Origin: Methylomarinum sp. Ch1-1
Lineage (GTDB): Bacteria; Pseudomonadota; Gammaproteobacteria; Methylococcales; Methylomonadaceae
Length of the DNA: 64,000 nt
Direction: 5' to 3'
Assembly (NCBI RefSeq): GCF_030717995.2
Contig: NZ_CP157743.1
Location: 620,001-684,000, forward strand
Shown here in pieces: positions 13,159 through 40,529 of the stretch. A program made the position numbers and the translations under genes. The notes under the pieces were generated by a model. The model had not been told where the DNA came from and searched no databases. It was given only the letters and a program-made list of their open reading frames with translations. Numbering within the stretch: the stretch's first letter is position 1; every line of letters starts with the position of its first letter.

Positions 13159-13244
13159 TCATGCTCAGCATAAAAAATCGCTCAACAATGGTGCATATTG
13201 GCCCGATTGGGGCGCCAATATTTACCGAGCGGTCTTATTTTTCG

Positions 13245-13401
13245 GTAACTATTCAGTATCTTTCAGGATTTAGGGAGTAGACCATTGATTTCTCGGGACG
13301 CGTGAATACTTCCATGTAAGCTCTGACTGCAACGTCCTGTTGCAGACAGCCCGATAAATCAATAGCCTACTCCCTCTGATAAAAATACGCTGAATAATTA
13401 C
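13245..13401 (-). mobile_element. Family A element, copy 1 (157 bp), with exact 8-bp target duplication
   Basis: Ends GTAACTATTCAG and CTGAATAATTAC, with inner arms AGGGAGTAG and CTACTCCCT, make a long imperfect palindrome. The element is reversed relative to the other five copies. ATTTTTCG flanks it on both sides (13237-13244 and 13402-13409). It has no coding capacity. GTAA ends with 8-bp duplications are known for the IS66 family, so it may be moved by an IS66-type transposase. Confidence 0.88.
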
Positions 13402-13439
13402 ATTTTTCGTTATGTTAACGATATTGACGGGTATGGAGC

Positions 13440-13730
13440 ATATATTCGCGAAGCCGCCCTACGTTAGCTACGTTGGCGTCGTAATCGTCGGTTGACCACC
13501 GTAGGGTGGATTCGCCGCCAGGCAATCCGACTGGATATGCACAACGGCCAATTTCGCCTCCGGTGGCGGTTTTTGGCGGCTTGCTTCGCGAAGCCGCCCT
13601 ACGATGCGGTAGGGTGTGCTGACGATAGGAAGCGCACCGGTTTTTGATGCGCTTCACCCAGCACCTAAATTATTATCCTGGGATGTAAAATATAGTCCAG
13701 TAGCCATGGCATTAAAAATGCTGTGAATAT
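13440..13730. repeat. Family D modules and a family C half-palindrome
   Basis: A partial D hairpin (CGCGAAGCCGCC at 13447) is followed by a full module with core hairpin 13575-13598, then GATAGGAAGCGCACCGG, and the left arm and loop of a family C element (CCCAGCACCTAAATT from about 13660, with GTAAAATATAGTCCAG). The right C arm is lost. The remaining 90 bases before the GH15-like gene appear unique. Open frames here are repeat artefacts. Confidence 0.65.
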
Positions 13731-13819
13731 TCGACGGATATGGGAACATATCCACTTAGCGAAGATTTATGGCAATAAGCTGAGTCGCCCTTCAAGTTTC
13801 ATTAAAGACCTACTCATTG

Positions 13820-16800
13820 ATGAATCAGGAAACGCGAACAGCTACTAAGATGAACCCATTAACGATAGTTAGGCCGCAGTCTGAAATGATCCTCATTCAA
13901 AAACTCGACAGTTATTACAGAGAGGTGCAGGAAATCATTCTGGACCGGCAAGACCCGGTTAGCGGCCTGCTGCCCGCCAGCACCGCCGTTAACGTCCATG
14001 GCAACTACACCGACGCCTGGGTCCGCGATAATGTCTATAGCATCCTTGCCGCCTGGGGATTGGCGCTGGCCTATCGCCGCATCGACGAAACCGATGGGCG
14101 CACCTATACCCTGGAGCAAAGCGTCGTTAAATTGATGCGAGGCCTATTAACCGCGATGATGCGCCAAGCCGCCAAGGTCGAGCGCTTTAAATACAGCCAG
14201 GACCCGCTGGATGCCTTGCATGCCAAATATGACACGCATAGCGGCACTATCGTCGTCGGCGACCATGAATGGGGGCATTTGCAACTCGATGCGACTTCGC
14301 TTTTTTTACTGATGCTGGCTCAGATGATCGCCTCCGGTCTGAAAATCATCTTCACCCTCGATGAAGTCAATTTCGTCCAAAACCTGGTGCATTATATTTC
14401 CCGCGCCTACCGGACCCCCGATTACGGCATCTGGGAACGCGGCAATAAAAGCAATCACGGCATCGCCGAATTGAACGCCAGTTCGGTGGGCATGGCCAAG
14501 GCGGCTCTGGAGGCGATGTCCGGATTCAACCTGTTCGGTGCGAATGGCGGTCAAGCCTCGGTCATCCATGTGATCAGCGATGAAATTGCCCGTTCCCGCA
14601 TCACGCTGGAATCGCTGCTGCCGCGTGAATCGATGTCCAAGGAGGTGGATTCCGCGCTGCTCGGCGTCATCGGGTATCCGGCTTTCGCCGTTGAAGACCT
14701 GGATTTATTACAGAGAACCGAACAACGAGTTTGTGAAAAACTGCAGGGTCAGTATGGTTGCAAACGCTTCCTGCTCGATGGACACCAGACTGCGATTGAA
14801 GACAGTCATAGGCTGTATTATGAACCGCATGAATTGAAACAATTCATGGATATCGAATGCGAATGGCCGTTGTTTTTTTGTTATTTACTGCTCAATAAGT
14901 TGTTCACCGGCCAGAAGGCCGAAGCAGACGTCTATCGCGGCAAGCTGGACCAGTTGCGCGTTAATCGGGACGGTCGCCAGTTATTGCCGGAACTCTACAG
15001 GGTTCCGGCGGACAAGATCGAGGCGGAACGCAATGATCCCGGCAGCCAGCCGCGCGTCCCCAATGAAAATATACCGCTGGTCTGGGCGCAAAGCCTATAT
15101 ACCTTAGGCGCGATGATCCAGGACGGTTTGCTGGAAATCGGCGACATCGACCCGCTAGGACGCCGCCAATCCATCGGCCGCAGCCGCAGTCGTAAAATCC
15201 AACTCACCCTGCTGGCCCAGGATGCGGCGGTGCAAAACCAATTGGATGAATTCGGTATCGTCACCCAAACTTTCGCCGAAATCGCTCCCATCCAGATCAG
15301 AGAATCCGGTGAATTGGCCGCCGCCTACACCCAGGTTGGCCGCAACAAACGTCTCGGATTAAGCGGCAGACCCAATCGACAGGTTCGCGCTCTGGGCACG
15401 GCCTTGCTCTATAAACTAGCCAATAATCGCATCCTCTTCTTGCCTCAGTTCATGAACCAACGCGGCTTTTATCTGGCTTTGGACAACCGTTTGCTGGTTG
15501 AACGCCTGCGTCACGAGTTGGCCTATATTTATCAACACTGGGACCGTCCCGGCCGTCCTCTGGTGGTCATGGTGATCAAACATAATATGCTGGATAACGA
15601 AGGCTATCGAGTATTGCTGGAATTCATGGCGGAATTGCAACAAGGCTCGATCCTCGGCGTACCGGTGCAACTGGGACGCCTGGCCGAATTCATCCCCACC
15701 GCCAGCCATGAGCAAATCGACCATCTGCATGATTTTCGTTTTTCCGAGCCCAGCTGGCAAGAAGCCGAGCGTCCCGGTCGACGCTTATTGACGGCTTGCG
15801 CGGATGCGAACATAGCCGTCGATGCCGAAACCTTGAGCCGTTGGGAAAAGTCGGACGACGATTTCTTGCTCGGACAGTTGACGAGCAACGCCAATCTCTA
15901 TGCCCAACTGGAGATCTTAGCACTACTAAACTCGCGCCATGGCCCGGATCACGCCGTCATTTTAAGCGTCTTCGACCAGCGGCCTTGTCGGCTACGCGAT
16001 TTGCTCGAAGAGGTTTACGCCCGGGCCGGCGACTTGCATGAATGGACGCTGGTTCGGCGCAGCGCCGGCTTATTGGGTAAATATGATGTCGACCTGGAAC
16101 AGGCCGCCGCCGAAATACTGGTGCGCCTGAAGCGCTTGAGCGTCGGCCGCGAATACAGCAACCGAGCGACCTTTAAACGGCCGCCCAATGCCCAGGAAAT
16201 TCTGTCGACGATACGCACTTACAACAACAATGATGTCGCCATCCATATTATCATCCAAGAACTCATCATCTATCTGGGCATTCTGATCAAGTCCCATCCG
16301 GAATTGTTTACCGATATGCATACGGTGCGGGTCGGTCATATCATGCAGCTGATTGTCGCCCGACAACGGCGCAAACTGGATTGCGAAATGGATGTAGCCT
16401 TTAACACGCTGTTGGCGCTGCCGCCTCATCAACTGGCCCAATTGGTCAAAGAGACGCTGGCCGATTACCAAAACTCGGAAAGCGAATTGAATCAGGCGGA
16501 AACGCTTCGTTACGAGGGACGATACAAACATCTGGGCAGCGCCCGTTTTTCCGAACAGCTCAATCCTAAAGATCGCGGCAGCGCCGAGGACTGGCATGAG
16601 TGGCGCGAACAACTCGGCAGCGTCGGAAGAGAACCGGCTGCCTTCTTCGCCGCCGTCTGGGAGATTCTGCAGCACTGTAAGGGGTTGGTTATCGATGATA
16701 AACTGAACAGCAAACGCCTGCTCGACAGCGAAGATATACTGGCGCAGATGACCGCCGAGGAACAAAGTTTCGAATTGTTGATTAATCACCGACTGGATAA

Positions 16801-17104
16801 GATTCAGTCGCCCGATTATCGACAATTGACCGTTGAAGCCTTGCAGGCGCTGGCATTGATCTTCAAGGACGATCCCGAACTCTATGTCGATGACACCTTA
16901 ATGACCGATACGCTGATCAATCATGCCGTGCGCATCAGTTGGCTGCAAAAACATCCGGACCGCGCGCACCAATACGAACAGGATCATGCCTTTTCGTGGC
17001 AGGAATTTTATCAGCTGCCGCCCAACGAGGTTGCAAATGCGATCATCGACGCATTGAATTATCTGCTGGATAACGACAACGAAACCCCGGGAGTGTGCAT
17101 ATGA
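13820..17104 (+). CDS. GH15 / phosphorylase-kinase alpha-beta-like protein
   Basis: About 1094 residues. The N-terminal ~450 match the glucoamylase-like fold of glycoside hydrolase family 15 in its phosphorylase b kinase regulatory subunit branch: NYTDAWVRDNVYSILAAWGL, WGHLQLDATSLFLLML and IWERGNKSNHGIAELNASSV are characteristic. The rest is a long, mostly helical region also found in the kinase subunits. Bacterial members are uncharacterised; hydrolysis or binding of alpha-glucan is plausible. The next gene is glucokinase with a 4-base overlap (ATGA), which supports a role in glucose or glycogen metabolism. A TTG at 13817 is an alternative start; the ATG at 13820 is chosen. Confidence 0.8.
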   Translation: MNQETRTATKMNPLTIVRPQSEMILIQKLDSYYREVQEIILDRQDPVSGLLPASTAVNVHGNYTDAWVRDNVYSILAAWGLALAYRRIDETDGRTYTLEQSVVKLMRGLLTAMMRQAAKVERFKYSQDPLDALHAKYDTHSGTIVVGDHEWGHLQLDATSLFLLMLAQMIASGLKIIFTLDEVNFVQNLVHYISRAYRTPDYGIWERGNKSNHGIAELNASSVGMAKAALEAMSGFNLFGANGGQASVIHVISDEIARSRITLESLLPRESMSKEVDSALLGVIGYPAFAVEDLDLLQRTEQRVCEKLQGQYGCKRFLLDGHQTAIEDSHRLYYEPHELKQFMDIECEWPLFFCYLLLNKLFTGQKAEADVYRGKLDQLRVNRDGRQLLPELYRVPADKIEAERNDPGSQPRVPNENIPLVWAQSLYTLGAMIQDGLLEIGDIDPLGRRQSIGRSRSRKIQLTLLAQDAAVQNQLDEFGIVTQTFAEIAPIQIRESGELAAAYTQVGRNKRLGLSGRPNRQVRALGTALLYKLANNRILFLPQFMNQRGFYLALDNRLLVERLRHELAYIYQHWDRPGRPLVVMVIKHNMLDNEGYRVLLEFMAELQQGSILGVPVQLGRLAEFIPTASHEQIDHLHDFRFSEPSWQEAERPGRRLLTACADANIAVDAETLSRWEKSDDDFLLGQLTSNANLYAQLEILALLNSRHGPDHAVILSVFDQRPCRLRDLLEEVYARAGDLHEWTLVRRSAGLLGKYDVDLEQAAAEILVRLKRLSVGREYSNRATFKRPPNAQEILSTIRTYNNNDVAIHIIIQELIIYLGILIKSHPELFTDMHTVRVGHIMQLIVARQRRKLDCEMDVAFNTLLALPPHQLAQLVKETLADYQNSESELNQAETLRYEGRYKHLGSARFSEQLNPKDRGSAEDWHEWREQLGSVGREPAAFFAAVWEILQHCKGLVIDDKLNSKRLLDSEDILAQMTAEEQSFELLINHRLDKIQSPDYRQLTVEALQALALIFKDDPELYVDDTLMTDTLINHAVRISWLQKHPDRAHQYEQDHAFSWQEFYQLPPNEVANAIIDALNYLLDNDNETPGVCI

Positions 17105-18087
17105 TACTCGCTGGCGACATTGGCGGCACTAAGACCGTGTTGGCGTTATACGGCCGCAATAATCAAGGGGAATTGCAATGCGAATTCGAGCAGACCTATT
17201 TCAGCGCCGAATATCCCCATTTCCATGACATCTTGTCGGTTTTTATCCCCGCCGATACAACGCTCAACGCCGCCTGTTTCGGCATCGCCGGACCGATCGT
17301 CGAACAACGCTGCCAAATCACCAATCTGCCCTGGCTTATCGATGCCGCGGAGCTGTCCATCAAACTTCGCTGCAACCGCGTCAAACTGTTGAACGACCTC
17401 GAAGCGACGGCGATTGGCATGTTGAATATTCCGTCCGAAGACCTGGTCGAACTTAACCCCAGCGCCCAACGCCAACAAGGCAATATTGCCGTGATCGCCG
17501 CCGGCACCGGTCTGGGCGAAGCGATACTGTACTGGGACGGACAACGCCATCACCCGATGGCGACCGAAGGCGGCCACTGCGATTTCGCGCCTCAAACCCA
17601 GCAGCAGGATCTCTTACTGAGTTATCTACGCAAACAGTTTAACGGTCATGTGAGCTGGGAACGCGTGCTTTCCGGCGCCGGTTTCGGTCATCTCTATGAT
17701 TTCCTCGTTGACATAAACTATGCGCCGGCCTGCCCGGCAGTGCCGGCGGCTAACTCCGTCAACGCCTTAAGCGATGACCGGAACGCCATCATCTCGCGTC
17801 TGGGCCTTAACGTCGAGGATCGGGGTTGCGCGGAAGCGCTGCGCCTGTTTGTCGAATTATACGGCGCCGAAGCCGGCAACTTGGCGCTGAAATGTCTGGC
17901 GACCGGCGGCGTTTATATCGGCGGCGGCATCGCGCCTAAAATCCGTCCCGTGTTGGAGAACGGCGACTTCCTGCGCGCCTTCAGCGACAAAGGTCGCTTC
18001 CAAACCTTGCTCAGCGGCCTATCGGTCAAACTGTCTCTGAACCCAAATACCGCCTTGATCGGCGCGGCTCATTACTTTTCAGATTGA
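17101..18087 (+). CDS. glk: Glucokinase
   Basis: A 328-residue ATP-dependent glucokinase (Glk family) phosphorylating glucose at O6. It opens with the phosphate-binding motif GDIGGTKT and includes NDLEATAIGM, AAGTGLGEA and EGGHCDFAP, which line the glucose and ATP sites in the family. A GTG at 17095 would extend it by two codons. The ATG at 17101 is preferred because it gives the classic ATGA overlap with the GH15-like gene and sits properly behind GGGAG. The pair probably channels released glucose to glucose-6-phosphate. Confidence 0.92.
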   Translation: MILAGDIGGTKTVLALYGRNNQGELQCEFEQTYFSAEYPHFHDILSVFIPADTTLNAACFGIAGPIVEQRCQITNLPWLIDAAELSIKLRCNRVKLLNDLEATAIGMLNIPSEDLVELNPSAQRQQGNIAVIAAGTGLGEAILYWDGQRHHPMATEGGHCDFAPQTQQQDLLLSYLRKQFNGHVSWERVLSGAGFGHLYDFLVDINYAPACPAVPAANSVNALSDDRNAIISRLGLNVEDRGCAEALRLFVELYGAEAGNLALKCLATGGVYIGGGIAPKIRPVLENGDFLRAFSDKGRFQTLLSGLSVKLSLNPNTALIGAAHYFSD

Positions 18088-18166
18088 TCGTAGCGTAACC
18101 TGTGAAAACCGTCGATTGCGTGCGGAACATTCCGTCTATCCACCGATAATGGAGGAGGTAGCAAGC

Positions 18167-20589
18167 ATGTGCAGAAATTTCAGTAATCATAGGCGCTATT
18201 TTGACCTTCTGTTCTTTTGCGGACTGCTGCTAGCATCTGCATCTATCCGCGCTATCGAGCCGCCCTCCCCGTCTTCTCCTCAACCAAGCAAAGAACCCGC
18301 TGTCCAGCAACGGCTGGCCGAGATCAAACAGCGGCAAGCCGCTTTGACCAAGCAAAACGATTCGTTTGCCCGCCGCCTGTCGGTCGCCAAAAACGAACAA
18401 CGCAGCGATGCAGCCCAACAACTGCAAACGATACTGACGACTCTCGCACGGCTCAATGCCAGCTATGATCAACAGCTCATCGCGCTAGAGCGACACCATT
18501 CACTGACTAGCAAAAAACAACAATATCAAGAACCAAGCTGGAAAAATCGACGGCGCCCAAGCAACCCTTTTCCTTCATAGAACTGGACCAAGCCCGCGAG
18601 GAGCTGAATGTGGAATCACGCCGGGACGCGGCTTTGGCGGCTGGAATCGAACTAGCCGAAGAAGCCTTGAAGACGGCTGACGAAGCGCTGCAACAACGAC
18701 AAGAAACGGTTTCCGAACTAGCGGCCGAACAGGCCCAGGCAGATACTGAATCGAAACAACCGGAGCTCGCCTTGGAAAAGGCGCGTTGGCAATTGACGTT
18801 GGCGGAACAAAACCAAAGACTACGCCAGCTTGAACTGGATAACGAACAACTGGCGAAATCCGTTCACCAGCTTCATCTGGACTTGTTGCGCAGCCAGGTC
18901 AAGTTTCTCCAGACCCATGCAGCCTTTGGCGCCGACGAACTAAAAGAGCAATTGCGGCGCATCGACAAGGAACAATTTGCGTTGAATCGTCAGGTGGCGC
19001 GTGCAAAAAGCCAGCTGAGCACGGTCAAAACCCTGCTGGAACAGAGCAGAAAAAAATTACACACCGACCCCAGCCTTGAAGCGGACAGCGACGCCCTGCA
19101 ACTGCAATACGAGGCGTTAAAGACCCAAATAGACAACGACAGCCGCCGCATCGAGTTGCTCAACGATTCGAAGCAAGTCTGGCAACGGCGTTACGATGTG
19201 TTCAATCAGGCTGTCAATCAAGCGATGCTGCCAAAATGGCGCAGCCAAGCGAAGCAAAAATTGACCGAAATTGACCAGGAACAGGCCGCCCTGAAACTTT
19301 GGCTTGCCGACTGGCAAAGCCGTCAAATCACACTGCTGAACAAGATCGATGACGGCCAGACAAGCCGTGGAATCGAACAACAACGCGATGCAGTAAAGCA
19401 AATTCTCGCCTCGTTACAGGCCTTGCATAACGCCCTGGAAAACAGTCGCCGACTGCATAATAAACTGATCGATGAAATCAATATCCGCACGTCTCAGCGA
19501 TCCCTGCGTGAATGGGTCGAGTTGGCGTTAAATTACCAGATCTATCAAAACATGGTGCTGGATTGGTGTTACGCCTTCGCCACGGCTCTAACCACCTTCC
19601 TGCTGCTGTATTTTCTCCGCTGGATTCTGATTCTCAGGCTGAAACGCCTGGAAAAGCCGAGCAAGGCTTCATTGATCAACGCCTTTTTGTCCGTCATCCA
19701 ACGCGCGAACAGTTTTTTCTTCTTGATGCTCGCCGTCTTCGCCGCCTCCCAGTTGCTGACGCTGACGACTGCCACCCAAACCACGATCAGCAATTTGACG
19801 AAAGTGGCTACCGTGTTTCAAGTCGCCGTATGGGCCAGCAGTTTCGTCAGCGCCTGGGTGTTTCGCATTCTCGCTCGTCGCACCAAAGGCGACGGCGCCA
19901 GCATGAGCGCCTTATCGATTTTCAACTTTTCCAGCCAAGTGATAGTCTGGTCGATCGCCTTATTGCTGATCCTGCAGAACTTCGGCATCGATGTCACCGC
20001 GTTGGTCGCCGGTCTGGGCATCGGCGGCGTCGCTATCGCGCTGGCCTTGCAGCGCATACTCGGCGACCTGTTCTCGTCCTTCTCGATCGTGTTGGACAAA
20101 CCCTTTGTCGTCGGCGATTTCATCATCTTCGACGATTTCCTCGGCAGTGTCGAACACATCGGCATCAAAACCACCCGCATCCGCAGCCTGAGCGGGGAAC
20201 AGATCATTTGCGCCAACGGCGACCTGCTCAACACCCGTATACGCAATTACAAGCGCATGAACGAACGCCGCGTCACCTTTAAAATCGGCGTGGTTTACCA
20301 AACCCCGCCGGAAAAACTGCAACAAATCCCCGCCATGATCCGGGAAATCATCGAGGCGCAACAGCCCACTCGTTTCGATCGCGCCCATTTCAGCGCTTAT
20401 GACGATTTCGCCCTGCTCTTCGAAATCGTCTATTACGTGTTGGATCCCGATTACAACCTCTACATGGATATCCAACAAGCAATCAACCTGGAGATCTTCA
20501 CGCGTTTTCAAGCCGCCGGCATCCAATTCGCCTATCCGACCCAATCGCTTTACCTGCAGAACCTGCCCAGCCAGGAAAACTTGCAGTGA
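18167..20589 (+). pseudogene. MscS/MscK-type mechanosensitive channel gene with a frameshift
   Basis: Two frames together encode one long channel protein. The first begins at ATG 18167 behind GGAGGAGG, with a signal peptide (FDLLFFCGLLLASASIRA) and coiled coil, and runs off-frame near 18530. The second is open from 18511 and continues the coiled coil (KLEKSTAPKQ, FIELDQAREEL) with no start of its own before GTG 18610. Then come about five membrane segments and a full MscS domain (VAGLGIGGVAIALALQ, then IKTTRIRSLSGEQI). A single missing base in roughly 18512-18534 explains the break. The six-A run at 18512-18517 is not in the register for a canonical -1 slippery site. It could be an inactivating mutation or a sequencing error. 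Confidence 0.8.
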
Positions 20590-20769: not shown

Positions 20770-20988
20770 GTAACTGCTCGCCCCACTTATCGAACGCGGC
20801 AGGGCATGTGGATTCGCCGCCAGGTAATCCGCCTGGTACGCACAACGGCTAATTTTGCCCCGGTGGCGGTTTTTGGCGGCTTGCTTCGCGAAGCCGCCCT
20901 ACGCGTTATATTGCAACCGTCGGATGGCCCCACCGGGTGGATAAGCCTGAAGGGCGCATCCACCCTACGAATGGGGGTGAGTAGTTAC
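20770..20988. mobile_element. Family E element (219 bp) containing a family D module
   Basis: Ends GTAACTGCTCGCCCC and GGGGGTGAGTAGTTAC are imperfect inverted copies. The left flank is CATTTTGT (20762-20769). The matching right copy CATTTTGT is found after the adjacent family A element (21260-21267), because A inserted into E's right flank. A family D module with core hairpin 20875-20898 lies inside, flanked by sequence matching the other E copy at 4742-4874. GTAA ends and an 8-bp duplication again recall IS66-type elements. Confidence 0.78.
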
Positions 20989-20995
20989 CATTTTG

Positions 20996-21258
20996 GTAAT
21001 TATTCAGCGTATTTTTATCAGAGGGAGTAGGTTATTGATTTATCGGGCTGTCTGCAACAGGACGTTGCAGTCAGAGCTTACGCCGCACAGGGAAGTGCAA
21101 GTGCCGCGTGAAGCAGGATGCTGTTAGCTGCCATGGAAGTATTCACCCAGCACCTAAATACCATAGACTATTGGCAATGATTTATAATCGTCGTTTATTT
21201 AGGTGCTGGGAAATCAATGACCTACTCCCTAACCCCCTGAAAGATACTGAATAGTTAC
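20996..21258 (+). mobile_element. Family A element, copy 2 (263 bp), with exact 8-bp target duplication
   Basis: Ends GTAATTATTCAGCG and CTGAATAGTTAC. CCATTTTG flanks it at 20988-20995 and 21259-21266. The core is enlarged by a GCCGCACAGGGAAGTGC unit, also seen tandemly at 36667-36819, and by a family C palindrome at 21146-21210. It inserted at the right edge of the family E element. Confidence 0.88.
21146..21210. repeat. Family C palindrome (65 bp)
   Basis: CCCAGCACCTAAAT and ATTTAGGTGCTGGG form a perfect inverted repeat around a loop of the second type (contains ATAGACTATTGGC). It replaces the short spacer GCGTCCCGAG found at this position in simple family A copies. Confidence 0.85.
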
Positions 21259-21304
21259 CCATTTTGTTTGGATTATTTACCTACCGAGACCCGAAGGAGG
21301 TCAA

Positions 21305-26548: not shown

Positions 26549-26683
26549 CCTCGATCAATAATGTCTCGGTTTTTATGGTTTGTCATCGTGTAATTATTCA
26601 GCGTACTTTTATCAGAGGGATTAGGTTATTGATTTATCGGGCTGTCTGCAACAAGCGGATTTTTGCTCTGACCGCCAACGTAG

Positions 26684-26707
26684 GGCGGCTTCGCGAAGCA
26701 AGCCGCC
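26684..26707. repeat. Family D hairpin inside family A copy 3
   Basis: GGCGGCTT-CGCGAAGC-AAGCCGCC, the reverse orientation of the usual form, at the start of a module that continues to about 26910 with GTGTCGAACAGCGTGAAGCG and CCGTAGGAGGC, as near 3115-3180. Confidence 0.75.
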
Positions 26708-26952
26708 AAAAACCGCCACCGGAGGCAAAATTGGTCATTGTGGTTTCCAGGCGCATTGTCTATCGGCGAACCACCCGACGGTTGCATGCCAATGTAGCCT
26801 TGCCTTCGGATGTGTCGAACAGCGTGAAGCGCATCAAAACAAGGTGCGCTTGCTCCGCCAAAGTCTGCCCGTAGGAGGCCCGCCCTCGGGCCGAATGGCT
26901 CTTTTCGCGCCGAAATCAATGACCTGCTGCCTTGAAAGACACCGAATCGCTA

Positions 26953-27190
26953 CAGCAATTCCCACTTTGGCGTTCAAAAAGGGCATGGGGTGTGTTTGGC
27001 GAGGATGTCGGCAGCAAGGATGCTGCCGTCAAGCCCCCAGGGATGGGTTTACCCAGCACCTAAATTCCATGGCTACTGGACTATATTTTACATTCCAGCA
27101 TAATTTAGGTGCTGGGTGAACGGCGCTCCTCGACAGACACACCCCATGCCCTAAACACCGCAAAAATACTCAAACTGATGGGAATTGCTG
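26953..27190 (+). mobile_element. Family B element, full copy (238 bp) with exact 9-bp target duplication
   Basis: Ends CAGCAATTCCCA and TGGGAATTGCTG are perfect 12-bp inverted repeats. GAATCGCTA flanks it on both sides (26944-26952 and 27191-27199). The duplicated bases are the end of the family A element it entered. Inner arms pair AAAAAGGGCATGGGGTGTG-type sequence with CACACCCCATGCCC, and a family C palindrome occupies 27052-27116. It has no coding capacity. Confidence 0.9.
27052..27116. repeat. Family C palindrome (65 bp)
   Basis: CCCAGCACCTAAATT and AATTTAGGTGCTGGG surround the common loop (ATGGCTACTGGACTATATTT and onward). Both arms are intact. Confidence 0.85.
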
Positions 27191-27317
27191 GAATCGCTAC
27201 GTCTTCGTTAACATATCAATAGATTGAACTATACTGGGTTTTAACCGACTAATCATCGTTATTTTAACGCCTGACCGTCATAAAATTTTCAGTTAACGGA
27301 AATCACGCTTCCCGATT

Positions 27318-31138: not shown

Positions 31139-31145
31139 AATTCGT

Positions 31146-31448: not shown

Positions 31449-31483
31449 GAGTGTCGCCTTGTTAGCTTATAATTAAAAAAATG

Positions 31484-31641
31484 GTAATTATTCAGCGTAG
31501 TTTTACTAAGAGGGAGTAGGTTATTGATTTATCGGGCTGTCTGCAACAGGACGTTGCAGTCAGAGCTTACATGGATGTATTCACGCGTCCCGAGAAATCA
31601 ATGACCTACTGCCTAAAACCCGAAAGATACTGAATAGTTAC
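31484..31641 (+). mobile_element. Family A element, copy 4 (158 bp), with exact 8-bp target duplication
   Basis: Ends GTAATTATTCAGCG and CTGAATAGTTAC, arms AGGGAGTAGG and CCTACTGCCT. AAAAAATG is duplicated (31476-31483 and 31642-31649). This is the simple form, with an inner hairpin CTGCAAC-aggac-GTTGCAG and the spacer GCGTCCCGAG, no family C insert. Confidence 0.88.
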
Positions 31642-31953
31642 AAAAAATGTACATTATTATTAGACGGCTGGCGGTTTGCAATACACAATCGTTTTTAATT
31701 GCGCCGTTCAATGAACTGAACCGCCGATAACGAAGTCTATGACTCACAATAGCCGCTGGGTGGCCGTGTGTCGCAATCTACGACCAGCTCCTTATGCATC
31801 GAAAATTCCACCGAGTTGCCATTAAATAATGGGTAATTTAAGAATTCCTTAAGCTTAGTTATTTATCGTCGTTCGCGCATCAATCAAAATAGCCCCGCTT
31901 CATGGCGGAAAACCTCCCTCCCTAATTAATGAACACAGCAAAAAACAAATACC
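31642..31953. other. Intergenic region before the two-component genes
   Basis: No gene. Apart from the family A target duplication at its left edge it looks unique. It contains the direct-repeat box at 31837-31853 and presumably the promoter of the response regulator gene. Confidence 0.5.
31837..31853 (+). promoter_or_regulatory. PmrA/QseB-type direct-repeat box
   Basis: TTTAAG-aattc-CTTAAG fits the published PmrA/QseB box pattern of two YTTAAK half-sites separated by five bases. It lies about 100 bases before the response regulator start, so autoregulation is likely. Because the half-sites also pair as an inverted repeat around GAATTC, the match is suggestive, not proof. Confidence 0.55.
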
Positions 31954-32613: not shown

Positions 32614-32633
32614 CTCGGCAAGCATTTATCGTC

Positions 32634-34076
32634 ATGTCCATTCGCGTGCTGCCAAATTCGTTAAAAAAACAACTGCTGTTTTATCTGCTGTTTTGCACCT
32701 TAATCGTCTGGGGAGCCACCGCCTATATCAGCTTCAAGGAAACCCAGCGCGAAGTCGCCAAGGTGTTCAGGGAAGAACTTGCCCAGTCGGCCGGGGTCTT
32801 GCACGCCTTCGTTGAAAGCATGCTGCATGAGGGCTCATTATCGGAACACTGGGACCCGGAGCACGCCTCTAATCTGCTGCATACCCACGATCTCACTTAT
32901 CAATACGCCGGAAAAATCGCTTTCCAACTGTGGTCGGTGGATGAAGGTTTGATACTCCGCTCTGCCAGCGCCCCCAAATTCGCCTTGTCATCAATTCGAA
33001 ACGGCTATAGCCAGGCCACGTTGGACGAACATCTCTGGTATGTGTTCAGCATCGCCAATCATGATGGCGAATATATTATTCATGTCGGCCAACGTGAAGA
33101 TGTCCGCGAATCCATCACCTATGATGTTACCCGACAACTGATGCAGAATTTTTTAATCGGTTTGCCGATATTGGGCATGATGATTTGGTTCATCGTCAGC
33201 CACACCCTTGCCCCGCTCAATCATCTGACCAAACAGCTGGCCAAGCGCGAAGCCGGTTATCTTAAACCCTTGCCGATTAATGATCTGCCGGAAGAAATCA
33301 TACCGGTCGTCAAAGAGCTCAACACGCTGTTTGTGCAACTCGAACAGGCTTTCGAAAACGAGCGCAATTTTACTTCGGACGCTTCCCATGAATTACGCAC
33401 CCCCTTAGCCGGTTTATTAACCCAGGTTCAGGTGGCGCAAAAAACACAAGATGAGAGCGTACGTACTCAAGCGTTAAACAAAGCGCAACAGGCCGTGCAA
33501 CGCATGACCCGGATGGTGCAACAGCTATTGACGCTGTCGAGAATCCAAAGCCAAAACGAAAAAATGGACCAAGCCGTCATCAATATCAATCAGGAAATCG
33601 TCAATCTCATCAGTGAAATCGAACCACTGGCTCATCGTAAAAATATCGACATTGAATATCAATCCGCGGAAACTCTGAACATCAGCGGTAACCAGCAATT
33701 GATCGACATTCTGATCAGAAACCTGATCGAAAACGCATTGAAATATTCACCGCAAAACGGCAAGGTTAAAATCCGCTCGATGCGAGAAAAAAACCAATTA
33801 TGGCTCAGCGTCGAAGATAACGGCCCCGGCATCAAGGAAAAAGACCGAAAACGCCTGACTCGGCGTTTTTTCCGCAGCGTAGAAACGGCTAGCACTACCG
33901 AGGGGAGTGGTCTTGGCTTGTCGATCGTGCAACGCATTGCCACCCTACACGATGCCGAGATTCATTTTTCCAAATCAAGCATGGGAGGACTGCTTGTCTT
34001 ATTGATTTTTGATTTACCGTTCGCAACGTCCACCGCGATCAAACACAAACGAACGCATTTATTCAGAAAAAAATAA
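32634..34076 (+). CDS. Sensor histidine kinase (QseC/PmrB-like)
   Basis: A 480-residue membrane kinase. It has membrane segments at about residues 14-34 and 168-190, with a periplasmic sensor of about 130 residues between them. A HAMP-like linker follows. The phosphoacceptor is His252 in SDASHELRTPLAGLL. The ATP-binding domain shows N (LIENALKYSP), G1 (VEDNGPGI) and G2 (GSGLGLSIV) boxes. It is paired with the upstream OmpR-type regulator. The signal cannot be read from sequence. Confidence 0.94.
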   Translation: MSIRVLPNSLKKQLLFYLLFCTLIVWGATAYISFKETQREVAKVFREELAQSAGVLHAFVESMLHEGSLSEHWDPEHASNLLHTHDLTYQYAGKIAFQLWSVDEGLILRSASAPKFALSSIRNGYSQATLDEHLWYVFSIANHDGEYIIHVGQREDVRESITYDVTRQLMQNFLIGLPILGMMIWFIVSHTLAPLNHLTKQLAKREAGYLKPLPINDLPEEIIPVVKELNTLFVQLEQAFENERNFTSDASHELRTPLAGLLTQVQVAQKTQDESVRTQALNKAQQAVQRMTRMVQQLLTLSRIQSQNEKMDQAVININQEIVNLISEIEPLAHRKNIDIEYQSAETLNISGNQQLIDILIRNLIENALKYSPQNGKVKIRSMREKNQLWLSVEDNGPGIKEKDRKRLTRRFFRSVETASTTEGSGLGLSIVQRIATLHDAEIHFSKSSMGGLLVLLIFDLPFATSTAIKHKRTHLFRKK

Positions 34077-34100
34077 TGCCTTCATTGACTACGCACAAGA

Positions 34101-34232
34101 TCACCAGTCTTTCCATTTAAACTGCTTTAAGCGTTGCTTGAACTTTTCCTTGTCATTGAAATACAAAATCACCAAAAACAATAAAGGCCAGATTAACAGC
34201 AACAGTATTTTGCCGAATGTTGCAAAGCTCAT
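34101..34232 (-). CDS. 43-residue single-span membrane protein
   Basis: A short frame beginning MSFATFGKILLLLIWPLLFL, with one membrane segment and a basic tail ending FKWKDW. A good ribosome-binding site (GGGAGGT) stands nine bases before the ATG, which supports it as real. It is convergent with the kinase gene and too short for usual gene callers. No family was recognised. Confidence 0.6.
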   Translation of the reverse strand: MSFATFGKILLLLIWPLLFLVILYFNDKEKFKQRLKQFKWKDW

Positions 34233-34298
34233 GATGTACTTACCTCCCGTGACGCCATCGTTTGATTGCGGCTATCAAGCTTTATCCATGATAAATAG

Positions 34299-34463
34299 CA
34301 GCAATTCCTAGTTTGAGTATTTTTGCGGGGTTAGGGCATGGGGTGTGTCTGTCGAGGAGCGCCGTAAACCCATCCCTGGGGGCTTGACGGCAGCATCCTT
34401 GCTGCCGACATCCTCGCCAAATACACCCCATGCCCTTTTTGAATACCAAAGTGGGAATTGCTG
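34299..34463 (+). mobile_element. Family B element, full copy (165 bp) without family C
   Basis: Ends CAGCAATTCC and GGGAATTGCTG. Flanks GATAAATAG (34290-34298) and GATAAAATAG (34464-34473) are a 9-bp duplication differing by one A. Inner arms GGCATGGGGTGTGTCTG and CACCCCATGCCC pair, as do CGGCAGCA and TGCTGCCG. This copy shows the state without the family C palindrome. Confidence 0.82.
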
Positions 34464-34545
34464 GATAAAATAGCCAATACTACCCTATTTCGGCCCGGAT
34501 TCGATACAATAGTAAAGATTTATATTTCATCGCACTCCATTATTC

Positions 34546-35292
34546 ATGAAAATTTCTTTCGAGATAGTCCCCCGCAGCAAAGAGGCATTTGCGGAACAAT
34601 ACCGTTTTGTTCAGTCCCTCGGCCCATCGATCGATCTGATCAATGTGCCCGACATTCAACGCTTTACCATCCGCAGCTGGGAAACCATCAAACATATCGA
34701 TCGTAGCCGGCATCAGTTCATCCCGCATTTAAGAGCGATCGATTTCGATATCAAGTCCGGAGAAATTTTCAAAATCATCGAGGAATATCAACTGGATAAT
34801 GTCCTGCTGGTATCCGGTGATCCGCCGGAAGGGCTAAAACGCAGCTTTTATAAGACCAATGTATTGGATTTAATCCGTGCGGTAAAACAGCAATTTCCCG
34901 ATATCAATGTCTACGCCGGCTTCGATTCTCATCGCAACGGCGTACAGGATGAATGCAACTATATCAAACATAAGGCCGACGCCGGCGTCTGCGGCTTCTT
35001 CTCACAGCCCTTTTACGACATCCGCATGATCGAAATCTACGCCGAGCAAATGCAGGGCTTGGAAACCTTCATCGGCCTGAGCCCAATCACCACCGAAGCT
35101 TCGATGAAATATTGGGAAGTCAAGAACAAAGTCCAGTTTCCGGCCGATTTCAGATGCGATTACCCGTGGAATATCGACTTCGCCAACCGTGCGATAAAAC
35201 TGGCCCACGAAGCCGGCATGAATATCTATTTCATGCCGATCCGTATCGATCTGGAAAAATACTTCGGTCAGCTTGAATTGTCTCAAAGCTAA
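34546..35292 (+). CDS. Methylenetetrahydrofolate reductase-fold protein
   Basis: A 248-residue protein with the MTHFR-like TIM barrel of COG0685: FEIVPRSKEAF near the N-terminus, the VLLVSGDPPEG strand (about 84-94) and GFFSQPFYD (about 151-159). It is shorter than MetF (about 290) and diverges from it, so it may be a specialised paralog acting on another folate or pterin. C1 metabolism would fit the suspected lifestyle, but the substrate is not shown. It is monocistronic between a family B element and the convergent trpC. Confidence 0.75.
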   Translation: MKISFEIVPRSKEAFAEQYRFVQSLGPSIDLINVPDIQRFTIRSWETIKHIDRSRHQFIPHLRAIDFDIKSGEIFKIIEEYQLDNVLLVSGDPPEGLKRSFYKTNVLDLIRAVKQQFPDINVYAGFDSHRNGVQDECNYIKHKADAGVCGFFSQPFYDIRMIEIYAEQMQGLETFIGLSPITTEASMKYWEVKNKVQFPADFRCDYPWNIDFANRAIKLAHEAGMNIYFMPIRIDLEKYFGQLELSQS

Positions 35293-35365
35293 TATCCCCC
35301 GACAGGTCACCGAGAGCGTCGTGTTTTAATCGCACTTTCGATGTTCCGGCGACTTGGCGGTTTAG

Positions 35366-36163
35366 TTAAAAGAAAAGCTCGCGCATCTTCTGCCCTGGAT
35401 GTTCGGCGCGCATGAAGGCTTCGCCGACCAGGAAGGCATAGACGCCGTTATCGGTCATCAACTTCACATCGTCCGGCGTATGAATGCCGCTTTCGGTTAC
35501 CAATAAGCGGTCTTCCGGCACCATTTTCATTAAATCCAGTGTGGTTTGCAGCGAGGTTTCGAAGCTGCGCAGATTGCGGTTATTGACGCCGACCAACTTG
35601 CTGTCTAAGCGCAATGCCCTTTCCATCTCGTTGGCATCATGCACTTCGACCAGCACATCCATGCCCAATTGGTTCGCCAATCCAGACAACTCTTGCATCT
35701 GCGCATCGGTCAGCGCGGAGACGATCAACAGAATGCAATCGGCGCCTAAAGCGCGCGCCTCGTAGACCTGATAGGGATCGATCATGAAATCCTTGCGCAA
35801 CACCGGCAGCGGGCAGCGGTCATGGACCAATTGCAGATAGACTTCCGAGCCCTGAAAATAGTCCTTGTCGGTCAACACCGACAGACAGGTCGCGCCGTTC
35901 ATCGCATAATCCTGGGCGATTTCGACCGGACGGAAATCCTCGCGAATCACGCCTTTGCTGGGCGAGGCTTTTTTGATTTCGGCGATGATGGCCGGCTTTT
36001 TCGCCAACGCCTTGTCCTTCAACGCCCGATAGAAGCCACGCGGCGTTTCGACGCCGGAAGCGATTTCTTGTAGCATCTCGACCGAGTTTTTCGCCTTGCG
36101 GCGCTCGACTTCTTCGGCTTTGGTTTCGAGGATTTTTTTTAGGATATCGGGAGTGTCTGTCAT
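35366..36163 (-). CDS. trpC: Indole-3-glycerol phosphate synthase
   Basis: A 265-residue TIM-barrel enzyme closing the indole ring in tryptophan synthesis. Motifs are [17 protein letters not shown], the catalytic-region [31 protein letters not shown] and VTESGI. It is the stand-alone form, not fused to TrpF. In the usual trpEGDC order it would follow trpD closely. Here 828 bases separate them, mostly a family A composite, so trpC may need its own promoter or depend on read-through. Confidence 0.96.
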
Positions 36164-36390
36164 GATTGAGTCAGTGATTTTTTATCGATGGGTTTCACGA
36201 GGTTCTACCCATCTTACGTTTATTAAAGTGTAATTATTCAGCGTAGTTTTACTAAGAGGGAGTAGGTTATTGATTTATCGGGCTGTCTGCAACAGGCAGA
36301 TTTTTGCTCTGACCGCCAAGGAAGGCGGAAATGTAGAAAATGCAGGAGCAATTTTCTACCTGCAAAATCTGCATTTCCATCGTTCCTGAC

Positions 36391-36640
36391 GGTCTACCTC
36401 ACCGGTTCCCGACCGGTGTGGCATTCCCACCCTCCCTGGCGGTCTACCTCACCGGTTCCCGACCGGTGTGGCATTCCCACCCTCCCTGGCGGTCTACCTC
36501 ACCGGTTCCCGACCGGTGTGGCATTCCCACCCTCCCTGGCAGTCTACCTCACCGGTTCCCGACCGGTGTGGCATTCCCACCCTCCCTGGCAGTCTACCTC
36601 ACCGGTTCCCGACCGGTGTGGCATTCCCACCCTCCCTGGC
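36391..36640 (+). repeat. Five tandem 50-bp repeats, each with an ACCGGT hairpin
   Basis: Each unit contains GTCTACCTC, then ACCGGT-tcccg-ACCGGT (a self-complementary 6-mer repeated to form a stem-loop), then GTGGCATTCCCACC. Units are almost identical; the first base is g in copies 1-3 and a in copies 4-5. There are no unique spacers, so it is not a CRISPR array. Near-identity points to recent expansion. Confidence 0.95.
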
Positions 36641-36666
36641 AGTCAGACGTTGCAGTCTGAGCTTAC

Positions 36667-36819
36667 GCCGCACAGGGAAGTGCAAGTGCCGCGTGAGATA
36701 GGACATCGCTAGCGGCCGCCGCACAGGGAAGTGCAAGTGCCGCGTGAGATAGGACATCGCTAGCGGCCGCCGCACAGGGAAGTGCAAGTGCCGCGTGAGG
36801 CAGGATGCCGTTAGCTGCC
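36667..36819 (+). repeat. Three tandem 51-bp repeats
   Basis: Units begin GCCGCACAGGGAAGTGC, continue AAGTGCCGCGTGA and end near CATCGCTAGCG; starts are at 36667, 36718 and 36769. The first two are identical and the third diverges at its end. A single copy of this unit sits at the same place in family A copy 2 (from 21084). Confidence 0.92.
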
Positions 36820-36832
36820 ATGGATGCATTCA

Positions 36833-36897
36833 CCCAGCACCTAAATTAACGAAGATTATAAATCATAGCCAATAACCTAGGGTATTTAGGTGCTGGG
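36833..36897. repeat. Family C palindrome (65 bp) in family A copy 5
   Basis: CCCAGCACCTAAAT and ATTTAGGTGCTGGG surround a loop that is close to the reverse complement of the loop at 21146-21210, so the palindrome is in the opposite orientation. Confidence 0.82.
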
Positions 36898-36991
36898 AAA
36901 TCAATGACCTATTGCCTAAAACCCGAAAGATACTAAATAGTTACATTAAGGTTTGTGCTTGAGTTAGGCGACAGCCGTAACCCAACATCAA

Positions 36992-38008
36992 TTAATGTTT
37001 GTTCGAATAGGCCACCAAAGCATCGAGTTTCCGCAGTGCCGCGCCACTAGCCAACACCTGTTGCGCCTTGTCTATGCCGGCAGCCAACGTGGCGCTGAGG
37101 TTGGCCGCGTATATCGCCGCACCGGCATTCAGCGCCACGATGTCCCTGGCCGGACCGGGCTCGTTATTCAACACCGTTTTCACCATCGCCAGACTGGATT
37201 CCGCGCCATCCACCGCCAAGCTATCCAAGCTTTGCCTTTGCAGACCGAATTGTTCCGGCGTGATCGTATAAGTTTTGATCTCGCCGTTGTGCAGTTCGGC
37301 GATATGGGTCGGCGCGGCGATACTGATTTCATCCAGACCGTCTTCGGCGTTGACCACTAACACATGCTTGCTGCCCAATTTTTTCAATACCTGGGCCAAG
37401 GGCTCCAGCCATTGGCTGGCGAACACGCCGATCAGCTGATTCGGCGCAGAGGCCGGATTGGACAGTGGGCCTAGCAGATTGAACAGGGTTCTCACGCCCA
37501 TTTCCTTGCGCGGGCCGATCGCGTGCTTCATCGCACCATGATGTTTCGGCGCGAACAAAAAGCCGACACCGATTTCATCCACGCATGAGCCGACTTGTTC
37601 GGCGGATAAATCCAAATTGACCCCTGCCGCCTCCAACACATCGGCGCTGCCGGAACTGCTGGATACCGAACGGTTGCCGTGCTTGGCCACCTGCCCGCCT
37701 GCCGCCGCGACCACGAAGGCGCAGGTCGTCGAGATGTTGAAGGTATTGGCGCCGTCGCCGCCGGTGCCGCAAGTATCGATGACATGTTCGCCGCGTACCG
37801 GCACGTTGACGGCCAATTCACGCATCACCGACGCGGCCGCGGCAATTTCATCGACCGTTTCGCCTTTGCAACGCAAGGCGATCAGAAAAGCACCGATCTG
37901 GGCGTCGCTGGCGCCGCCGGTCATGATCAGTCGCATCACCTGCCGCATTTCTTCGGCGCCTAAGTTTTGTCTGTCCAGCAAGCGCTGAATCGCCTCTTGC
38001 ATCGTCAT
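36992..38008 (-). CDS. trpD: Anthranilate phosphoribosyltransferase
   Basis: A 338-residue enzyme joining anthranilate and PRPP. The glycine-rich PRPP site [17 protein letters not shown], then [19 protein letters not shown] and the [10 protein letters not shown] motif are intact. Length is normal. It starts two bases after trpG and is the last gene of the compact trpE-trpG-trpD unit before the family A composite. Confidence 0.97.
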
Positions 38009-38010
38009 GC

Positions 38011-38601
38011 TTATCGCTCCAGGAAATTGCGCAGCATATCGTGGCCCTGCTCAGTCAATATCGATTCCGGATGAAACTGCACGCCTTCGACATCCAGCGT
38101 CTTATGTCTTATACCCATAATTTCGTCGATGTTGCCGGCTTCATCCTGGGTCCAGGCGGTGATTTCCAGGCAATCGGGCAGGGTCGCCTGATCGATCACC
38201 AGCGAATGATAACGCGTCGCGGTAAACGGATTACTGAGGCCCTTGAACACCCCGACATCATGATGATAAACGGGCGATGTTTTGCCGTGCATGATGCTTT
38301 TGGCATGGACGATGCGGCCGCCGTAGGCATAACCGATGCTCTGATGACCCAAACAGACGCCCAGTATCGGATATTTTCCAGCGAACCGGATAATGGCTTC
38401 GACCGAGATGCCAGCCTCCTTAGGCGTGCAAGGCCCCGGAGAAATCACTAGCTTGTCGGGCCGCATCGCGTCGATCTGTTCGATTGTCACCTCATCGTTA
38501 CGCACCACGGTCACATCCGCGCCCAATTCACCGAAATATTGCACCAGGTTGTAAGTAAATGAATCGTAGTTATCGACCATGACGACTCTTACTGCAGTCA
38601 T
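38011..38601 (-). CDS. trpG: Anthranilate synthase component II (glutamine amidotransferase)
   Basis: A 196-residue class I amidotransferase supplying ammonia to TrpE. The oxyanion-loop SPGPCTP, the nucleophile Cys in [11 protein letters not shown], and the His-Glu pair in VQFHPESI are present. It is a separate subunit, not a TrpGD fusion. Its start overlaps the trpE stop by four bases, consistent with coupled expression of the two subunits. It could also serve p-aminobenzoate synthesis. Confidence 0.95.
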
Positions 38602-40085
38602 GACTTCTCTCCTTCCAGCCCTGCTTCGGCCATACTGACAGCGCGGAAAATCGCCCGGCCTTTATTCATCGTTTCATCCCATTCGTTACGCGGCACCGAA
38701 TCGTAGACGATTCCGGCCCCCGCTTGTATGTGTAAGGTTTGATCTTTGATCACGGCGGTTCTGATCGCAATTGCCGTATCCAAATTGCCCGACCAGGAAA
38801 TATAGCCGACCGCGCCGGAATAGACGCCGCGTTTGACCGGCTCCAGCTCGTCGATGATTTCCATCGCACGGATCTTCGGCGCGCCGCTGACGGTGCCGGC
38901 CGGAAACGTCGCCGCCAACACATCGAAGGCGTCTTTGCCTTGCTGCAATTCCCCGGTTACGTTCGAGACGATGTGCATGACATGCGAATAACGCTCGATA
39001 ATCATCTTATCGGTCAACTTGACCGAGCCGATTTTCGCCACCCGGCCGGTATCGTTGCGGCCCAGGTCGATCAGCATCAAATGTTCGGCCAGCTCCTTCG
39101 GGTCGGCCAGCAAATCCTGCTCCAGTTCATGGTCCTCTTCCATCGTCGTTCCGCGCGGACGGGTGCCGGCGATCGGTCTGACGGTAATCTGCTCATCTTC
39201 CAGCCTAACCAAAATTTCCGGCGACGAACCGACGATATGAAAATCGCCCAGATTCAGAAAATACATATAAGGCGACGGATTCAGACAACGCAATGCTCGA
39301 TACAGATTCAGCGGCGCGGCTTGATAAGGGATCGACAGGCGCTGAGACAACACCACCTGCATGATATCGCCGGCGACGATATAGTCTTTAGCCTTCAACA
39401 CCGCGCTCTCGAAGCCTTCCTGGGTAAAGCCGGAGACGAAATCGGATTCATTCACCTGCTTAGGCGAAGCATGACTGTCGGGTCTGGCCTTCAGCTCGCG
39501 CAGCTTGACGATCAAGTCCTCCAGTCGAGCCACGGCCTTGGCATAGGCATCCTGCTGAGCCGGATCCGCATGTGTCAACAGCAACACCTTGCCGGACAGG
39601 TTATCGAACACCAACATTTCTTCCGACACCATCAACAATATATCGGGATTCCCGATCGGATCAGGCTTGCCGGTCGACTGCAACCGTTTTTCGATATAAC
39701 CGATAGTCTCATAGCCGAAATAACCGACCAATCCGCCGTTGAAGCGCGGCAGATCTTCGACATCCGGCACCTTGTACTGCTGGCGGAATGTCTCTATCCA
39801 CTGCAGAGGCTGCGGATGATTAAGGCTTTGCGTTATCCGTCCCTCCTGCTCCAGGGTGATTTCATGTCCGTAAACCTTGACCAGCGTTTTACATGGCAAT
39901 CCGATAATGGAATAACGTCCCCACTGCTCGCCGCCGTGTACCGACTCGAATAAATAGGAATAGGGTCCGTCCGCCAGTTTCATATAGGCGCTTAACGGCG
40001 TATCCAGATCGGCCAACACTTCCCGACTGACGGGAATGCGGTTGTAGCCTTGCCGGGCGTATTGGTTAAATTGCTCTGGTGTCAT
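38598..40085 (-). CDS. trpE: Anthranilate synthase component I
   Basis: A 495-residue chorismate-using enzyme. The N-terminal part carries [16 protein letters not shown], the region of the LLES feedback site for tryptophan. The C-terminal catalytic domain shows [31 protein letters not shown] and AGAGIVYDS. Upstream on the minus strand a TATAAT lies at 40157-40162. A 30-codon frame from there overlaps the start but has no run of Trp codons, so classical leader-peptide attenuation is not supported. Confidence 0.96.
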
Positions 40086-40156
40086 TATTGTTATTCAAGG
40101 GTTGTTTGGCGGCCCGATTGCCACCATGACTGACAGCATACTCATAAAAGCCTTTC

Positions 40157-40162
40157 ATTATA
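40157..40162 (-). promoter_or_regulatory. Possible -10 element of the trpEGD promoter
   Basis: TATAAT on the minus strand, about 72 bases before the trpE start. No convincing -35 hexamer was found at normal spacing, so confidence is low. Confidence 0.35.
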
Positions 40163-40335
40163 TCTTTTCGCGGCGGTTAACTGAATACAGTTCAACGCCA
40201 ATTGTATTCATTATCGGCTGGGAAACAGGATATGCGGAAAAAAATCGACGGCCGGCTTGCGCCCATCGGTGACGAGGCGACGCCTCCTAAAACCAGCAAG
40301 TCTCAGTTTGAGCATTTTTGTTGTGTTTAGGCCAT

Positions 40336-40492
40336 GTAATTATTCAGCGTAGTTTTATAAGAGGGAGTAGGCTATTGATTTATCGGGCTGTCTGCAACAG
40401 GACGTTGCAGTCAGAGCTTACATGGAAGTATTCACGCGTCCCGAGAAATCAATGGTCTACTCCCTAAACCCTGAAAGATACTGAATAGTTAC
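40336..40492 (+). mobile_element. Family A element, copy 6 (157 bp), inside family B
   Basis: Simple form with ends GTAATTATTCAGCG and CTGAATAGTTAC. Flanks TAGGCCAT (40328-40335) and TAGGGCAT (40493-40500) are the 8-bp duplication with one mismatch. The interrupted sequence is the family B arm TTTAGGGCATGGGGTG, which confirms both borders. Confidence 0.9.
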
Positions 40493-40529
40493 TAGGGCAT
40501 AAGGTGTGTCTGTCGAGGAGCGCCGTTCA

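Follow-up and report, generated by a model that had tools for sequence, protein, structure and literature searches.

How has a palindromic unit of 157 base pairs (bp), which carries no gene, come to stand at six places in a single stretch of the genome of the methane-oxidising bacterium Methylomarinum sp. Ch1-1? Here we present an analysis of this unit, designated family A, in the stretch in question (64,000 bp; contig NZ_CP157743.1, positions 620,001 to 684,000, hereafter the window), in the whole genome (4.77 Mb, 3 contigs) and in related genomes. An earlier note on the window, which had proposed transposition of a gene-less unit, was right in substance: family A belongs to a group of miniature inverted-repeat transposable elements (MITEs) that are most likely mobilised by transposases of the IS66 family of insertion sequences (IS) and carry a structured passenger. 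More specifically, we assign a probability of roughly 0.85 to the reading in which IS66-family transposases, encoded, as in ISBst12-like elements, by a single open reading frame (ORF), act in trans to move family A, a non-autonomous MITE whose interior is a captured core carried as cargo.

Insertion of family A in the window and across the genome

All six copies lie where the earlier note had placed them, save that copy 5 begins at 36230 and not at 36231 (Table 1). With up to one mismatch, the terminal 12-mer, GTAAYTATTCAG, occurs 12 times in the window, against 0.39 expected in shuffled sequence, and 11 of the 12 matches are element ends. The note had assigned this end to both sides of every copy, which holds for five of the six (the right end of copy 5 having one mismatch); the degenerate right end of copy 3 is more than one mismatch from the 12-mer. 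Likewise, its description of a palindromic 157-bp unit fits the simple copies, where the palindrome is strong (z = -7.9), and fails for copies 2, 3 and 5, which are longer and contain other repeats. The flanking 8-mers were found as it reported them, exact at copies 1, 2 and 4 and with one mismatch at copies 3, 5 and 6. The ends form terminal inverted repeats, which the predicted fold pairs. No transposase gene is present: copies of 157 to 158 bp are too short to hold the gene that a full IS66-family IS carries, and none of the genome's matches to PF03050 falls within the window.

Empty sites confirm that these are insertions. In a genome of another species of the same genus (G001), which has no match to the 157-bp element, both loci examined of the six in the window are uninterrupted, with one near-identical 8-mer each. 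At the site of copy 5 the flanks lie 13 bp apart, compared with 731 in the window, and a single ATTTTAAT stands where the window has ACCTTAAT and ACTTTAAT on the aligned strand. At the site of copy 4 the flanks are continuous around a single AAAAAATA, one mismatch from the AAAAAATG of the window. A third locus is provided by the window itself, since copy 6 sits in a repeat whose uninterrupted relatives, at 34320-34372 and 27113-27165, carry one exact TAGGGCAT. The empty sites are thus orthologous for two loci and paralogous for one, and cover three of the six.

Across the genome there are at least 40 copies of 152 to 158 bp and one fragment of 36 bp, a lower bound because only 40 of 225 candidates were scored; copy 6 has an identical second copy elsewhere. 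Exact matches to the 12-mer number 302 genome-wide, versus none for the same sequence read backward. Among the best 30 copies, the 8-bp target duplications are exact in 22, have one mismatch in 4 and have 5 to 8 mismatches in 4; in three of these last (L018, L021 and L024) the match ends short of the normal element end. When the left and right flanks of different copies were paired as a control, about 0.2% of 870 pairings agreed to within one mismatch. None of the 30 copies lies inside an ORF of 90 or more amino acids (aa), as found by a simple caller. An alternative in which palindromic repeats recombine, or slip during replication, and so spread the copies, the flanking 8-mers being coincidental, would accommodate the strong palindrome and the existence of composite copies; it is nevertheless extremely improbable in view of the 22 exact 8-mers among 30 copies, the single-copy empty sites at three loci, and locus L127, where one element is nested within another and each has its own exact duplication.

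The 157-bp unit is one of a larger non-coding group, of 50 to about 700 bp, whose members have the end 12-mer in common and differ in length and subterminal sequence. In forty further stretches round end matches, a subfamily B and a variant of family A share the first 12 bp and differ in the adjoining sequence, with sizes from 50 to about 580 bp. Exact duplications occur in 20 of 63 end-match rows, many of the other rows being internal or unpaired matches. A 50-bp element (L067:130-179) is flanked by an exact duplication, GAAATATA, and a near-identical 50-bp element at L063 has its own, located after an 8-base tail. Among 20 stretches from other genomes, 15 contain an exact-duplication pair (7 of 9 in G005, 4 of 6 in G003 and 4 of 5 in G015), a count that includes L210, taken without its left flank.

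Table 1. Family A copies, their flanking 8-mers and related cores in the window (positions are those of the window)
Feature	Positions	Strand	Details
Target duplication of copy 1, 8 bp, ATTTTTCG	13237-13244; 13402-13409	.	exact
Copy 1, 157-bp element	13245-13401	- (core strand)	core by covariance model 13267-13375
Target duplication of copy 2, 8 bp, CCATTTTG	20988-20995; 21259-21266	.	exact
Copy 2, 263 bp	20996-21258	+	extra hairpin module and CAGCACCTAAAT repeat within
Flanking 8-mers of copy 3, GTCATCGT and GTCTTCGT	26582-26589; 27201-27208	.	one mismatch
Copy 3, 611-bp composite	26590-27200	+	left end typical; right end GTAGCGATTCCAG, degenerate
Target duplication of copy 4, 8 bp, AAAAAATG	31476-31483; 31642-31649	.	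exact; empty site in G001
Copy 4, 158-bp element	31484-31641	+	core 31511-31619; part of the covariance model's alignment
Related core, not within a unit that has the end 12-mer	34328-34436	-	covariance model E 7e-17
Flanking 8-mers of copy 5, ATTAAAGT and ATTAAGGT	36222-36229; 36945-36952	.	one mismatch; empty site in G001
Copy 5, 715 bp	36230-36944	+	tandem 50-bp and 51-bp units within
Flanking 8-mers of copy 6, TAGGCCAT and TAGGGCAT	40328-40335; 40493-40500	.	one mismatch; paralogous empty sites
Copy 6, 157-bp element	40336-40492	+	core 40362-40470; part of the covariance model's alignment
Related core in the repeat that received copy 6	40559-40666	-	covariance model E 1e-4

The genes neighbouring copy 5 carry PF00218 (indole-3-glycerol phosphate synthase) and PF00591/PF02885 (glycosyl transferase family 3). 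Within this copy, at 36321-36818, tandem 50-bp units accompany three 51-bp units, and on the minus strand the 50-bp units fold into hairpins that have CGGGA loops. Elsewhere, a family A copy of 1546 bp (L068:116-1661) holds an insert of about 1.4 kb bounded on both sides by the CAGCACCTAAAT repeat. Several elements also adjoin a group II intron. At L137, L146 and L149 of the same genome, with the sequence followed further in L151 and L152, an intron starting GTGCGGCCAGGCAAGG comes directly after the GTTA of the element ends; in L151 and L152 the intron is matched by Rfam RF02005 and RF00029, and L149 has the same intron start. At L136, L138, L141 and L142, which belong to subfamilies A and B, the end GTTA is followed by an 8-base tail, to which an exact 8-bp target duplication is directly joined. 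Three of these tails read GTGCGGCC, as does the start of the intron in its first 8 bases, and one reads GTGTGGCC; the tailed copies account for 4 of 15 GAATARTTAGTGNGG sites.

IS66-family elements as candidate partners

The earlier note had judged trans-mobilisation by an IS66-type transposase likely, and had pointed to an IS with matching ends as the thing to look for. Such elements are present both in the same genome and in relatives. Of the two refuting conditions that the note had named, one on empty sites and one on IS ends, neither was borne out. A PF03050 search of the genome gave 24 matches, of which 20 loci were examined. One element, IS-A, occupies 12 places at 1670 to 1673 bp, with ends GTAATTATTCAGACACCC and GTAAGTATTCACACACCC, one end being GTAATTATTCAG, and has exact 8-bp duplications at 11 of the 12. 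Both NCBIfam (229.5 bits, cut-off 180) and Pfam place its transposase in the IS66 family, and at one end IS-A is identical to family A over 12 of 12 bp. Relatives identified by name are methanotrophs: a mussel endosymbiont and one metagenome-assembled genome each of Methylomonas, Methylococcaceae and Methylobacter. The elements in these genomes show GTAATTATTCAG, or a form of it with one mismatch, at one end at least, and one element has an exact duplication. In G001, which lacks the 157-bp element, the IS-A transposase is likewise without a match.

A further IS66 group, IS-D, was matched by 27 genomes out of 151 from the bacterial family (E 1e-20 or better), in many cases distantly. L231 and L255 carry GTAAYTAYTCAGCGTA at either end and L253 carries it at a single end, all three with exact duplications, and the transposase is assigned to IS66 by NCBIfam (297 bits). 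An exact 8-bp duplication is present at the IS66 locus L091 as well. In a comparison of 13 MITE ends with 20 IS66 ends, both sets chosen by us, the left end of family A was matched best by IS-D (17 of 20 bp, in the IS of G074), and a MITE of G003 matched IS-D over 19 of 19 bp (IS of G116 and G004). The best matches stayed within an end class, CAGC-type MITE ends pairing with CAGC-type IS66 elements and CACCC-type with CACCC-type, at up to 19 of 19 bp; the MITEs of G005 and G010 match IS66 elements ending in CACCC.

Family A thus has GTAA-starting ends that match an IS66 element, and the 8-bp duplications are common to it and these IS. Judged from sequence, mobilisation by IS66 is the most likely reading of the ends and the duplications; together with the empty sites and the co-resident and related IS66 elements, they support the suggestion of the earlier note and stop short of proof. 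Recognition by the transposase would extend over the terminal 12 to 16 bp (GTAAYTATTCAG; at the left end GTAAYTATTCAGCGTA), and the unit would be inserted at 8-bp staggered cuts, leaving the 8-bp duplications. The interior would be cargo, comprising in the 157-bp copies a conserved three-way-junction hairpin core that may have come to lie between IS66 ends by capture; its occurrence with two end classes suggests that this may have happened repeatedly. We infer the acting transposase, the sufficiency of the ends and the capture step.

Several observations weigh against this reading. The other end of IS-A differs from family A at 2 of 12 bp, the two have nothing further in common, and the longest frame of IS-A (547 aa) is kept in only 3 of its 12 places. 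Among the 24 PF03050 matches of the genome, no IS was found that matches family A beyond 12 bp; nor was an autonomous element with a family A-like left end found in the genome, either among those matches, with 20 loci examined, or at 19 GTAAYTATTCAGR sites. The IS66 elements of G005 itself end in GTAACCGTTCAC and that of G003 in GTAACTACTCACCCC, each a poor match to the resident MITE, and the IS66 elements that do match were found in other genomes, not at home. In addition, G001 has two broken matches to the IS-D group and matches repeats inside copy 5, though not the 157-bp unit, and the 50-bp copies could perhaps be internal deletions that arose after insertion.

Movement by another transposase family that makes 8-bp duplications, with GTAA ends resembling those of IS66 by convergence, would fit the want of an IS66 match longer than 12 bp in the genome, where only IS66 (PF03050) transposases were sought. 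Set against this, several IS66 elements from the bacterial family are identical to the MITE ends over 12 to 19 bp, the two end classes being matched, and their duplications are of equal length; we consider this alternative improbable. Slightly less so, and still unlikely, is an origin of family A as an internal deletion derivative of one IS66-family IS, its interior being leftover IS sequence. The match between the ends and IS66 elements would be expected of such a derivative, and a 1872-bp unit with family ends, L046, does contain a transposase gene. Identity with full IS66 elements, however, ceases after 12 to 19 bp, and a 14-16 base motif of the core (up to one mismatch) is absent inside the IS66 elements of the scanned loci; the matches in L043, L047, L091 and L046 fall outside the IS. 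The L046 unit proved to be a 158-bp-type copy holding another, inserted IS66-family IS. A deletion-derivative origin is largely refuted by these results.

L046 was accordingly rejected as an autonomous parent, the IS66-family IS nested within it being a different one. At L046 and L051 this IS has the ends GTAACTTCTCAA and the duplication GGTTTTAG. A further arrangement was seen in G004, where a 29-bp palindrome of two facing GTAACTACTCAGC ends (L214:1282-1310) lies 79 bp from an IS66 end; no duplication was seen there.

The core carried between the ends

Trans-mobilisation by IS66-family transposases would leave the interior to be explained. This interior is common to the MITEs of five genomes (G000, G003, G005, G010 and G015) despite their differing ends. 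Eighteen cores, taken from these genomes and from five more of the bacterial class, were aligned and give a three-way junction of 28 pairs, 22 of which have changes on both sides. In the alignment 91% of cells are paired, and the covariation score is 0.667, compared with 0.245 for shuffled alignments and at most 0.121 for slid structures; because we picked the rows from motif matches and derived the structure from the same alignment, these values have some built-in lean. A covariance model built on this alignment gave 81 matches at E 0.01 or better in 93 sources, of which many belong to the alignment or have relatives in it. New ones include the window places 34328-34436 and 40559-40666, neither of which falls within a unit that has the end 12-mer.

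In the window, copy 2 has a weak core match (21023-21160, E 2e-4), and no end 12-mer, at up to one mismatch, occurs between 31641 and 36230, around the related core at 34328-34436 (Table 1). A diverged core is present in subfamily B (L069). A second dispersed repeat stands at 26952-27153, 34355-34463, 40493-40694 and 41843-41933, and copies of it near 26980, 34328 and 40559 match the core model; a weak match (E 0.0046) was also seen at 54862-54969.

A 16-base core motif, at up to one mismatch, occurs 536 times in G015, 95 in G000, 72 in G249 and 60 in G404, and its reversed control not once in these four. At least one match was found in 103 of 274 genomes, many with one or two; the reversed control also gives single matches in some. 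Among 20 motif loci examined, 7 match the covariance model. Five of the seven (L258, L260, L263, L272 and L273) are in the model's own alignment, so that only L266 and L267 are independent, and several of the remaining 13 look like chance matches by context. G005 has no match to one query and dozens of core matches with another. Eleven cores that lie outside family A-type MITEs were checked over 100 bp to each side. Nine of them lack any end-like 12-mer at up to 2 mismatches; the matches near the other two (L081 and L091) are attributed to a neighbouring MITE and a neighbouring IS. The core therefore exists apart from IS66 ends. The interior is not leftover IS: the core occurs with two end classes, and without ends in other genomes of the class.

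Searches of the window with Rfam at gathering scores returned tRNA only. Below gathering scores, the only matches besides group II introns were to models such as mir-1256 (41.5 bits, cut-off 70, E 2e-6) and Ysr224 (27.7 bits, cut-off 70), on the palindromes, and we give them no credit. The core may be an unrecognised structured RNA, and it is probably functional, because compensatory changes extend across distant genomes and every first-hairpin loop of the alignment contains GGA.

In 54 copies, taken from the 81 model matches after near-duplicates and most weak ones were dropped and related, hence not independent, GGA occurs in 59 of 118 hairpin loops of the core strand versus 3 of 122 of the other strand; 50 of the 54 have at least one such loop, in 31 different loop contexts. 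In the 18-row alignment the corresponding figures are 21 of 37 and 0 of 36, and 100 shuffled sets gave a mean of 1.8 and a maximum of 5. All 18 rows show GGA in the loop columns of the first hairpin, 6 of whose 7 pairs are changed on both sides. Loops such as AGGAC, AGGAA, TGGA and GGA occur, and we therefore suggest that the kept feature is GGA and not a GNRA tetraloop.

GGA in hairpin loops recalls the sites of CsrA/RsmA and CsrB-type RNAs. The CsrA site defined by SELEX (systematic evolution of ligands by exponential enrichment) is given as RUACARGGAUGU, with ACA and GGA invariant, in the part of the source available (PMC4347634). Among 14 cores compared, it is exact in L258 and L273, has one mismatch in L272 and L267, and has more than one in the other 10, three window copies being 2 to 3 mismatches away. 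It is conceivable, if rather doubtful, that the core is a widespread structured RNA of the class whose GGA hairpins bind CsrA/RsmA, and that it was captured and spread by IS66-type MITEs. Against such a role, the second hairpin has a GGA loop in only 4 of 18 rows, and copy 5 has GGA in 0 of 10 core-strand loops versus 5 of 13 on the other strand. Unlike CsrB-type RNAs, the core has no Rfam match at gathering score, and the CsrA/RsmA-type Rfam models gave no match to the element. For the single simple window copies, one GGA loop was reached by 3 to 5 of 50 shuffles, which is not significant alone. Finally, the orientation of 30 copies relative to their neighbours (7 sense to both, 12 antisense to both, 7 convergent and 4 divergent) has no sense bias, which may speak against a simple cis-regulatory role.

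Known systems and significance

The closest counterpart to the proposed helper is ISDge4 of Deinococcus geothermalis, an IS66-family element of the ISBst12 group with a single transposase ORF; the available part of its description gives ends of GTGACTACTCAGCA and GTAACTGCTCAGCA, an 8-base direct repeat and observed transposition (PMC12898284). These ends resemble GTAAYTATTCAG and GTAAYTAYTCAGCG of the present genome. Unlike ISDge4, family A has no transposase gene and could at most be carried as a passenger by an IS of that kind. The same partial source terms IS66 transposition insufficiently characterised.

Miniature non-autonomous elements are known from other bacteria. As far as the accessible text goes, MITEPsy1 of Pseudomonas syringae is a 100-nucleotide gene-less element shown to transpose, presumably by a resident IS transposase (PMC3189936). 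It differs from family A in its likely derivation from ISPsy2 (listed as 'IS5?'), 4-nucleotide duplications and six copies, and that text does not mention a structured core. MITEPsy3 of P. syringae pv. actinidiae is described, in the portion available, as a 102-bp MITE with 78 copies (PMC6053426), so high copy number is known among bacterial MITEs; we liken it to family A by description, and its authors suggest ISPsy25 (listed as IS630) as helper, unlike the IS66 link of family A. MITEAba12, a mobile non-autonomous miniature element of a gammaproteobacterium according to the part of the report seen (PMC6382973), is likewise compared by description and not by sequence. In a partial survey of the literature, with subscription journals largely outside it, we met no MITE tied to the IS66 family.

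If the core does bind CsrA/RsmA, the element would be a transposable decoy or regulatory module, titrating or redirecting a global post-transcriptional regulator as its copy number rises. The core poses a separate question from mobilisation, and the structured passenger merits a study of its own. As for the mobile elements, the Methylomarinum genome offers a natural series in which a 12-bp end is common to all, the sequences next to it vary and the length falls to as little as 50 bp, with exact duplications and with empty sites. Such a series makes it possible to test what an IS66 transposase needs as its minimal substrate.

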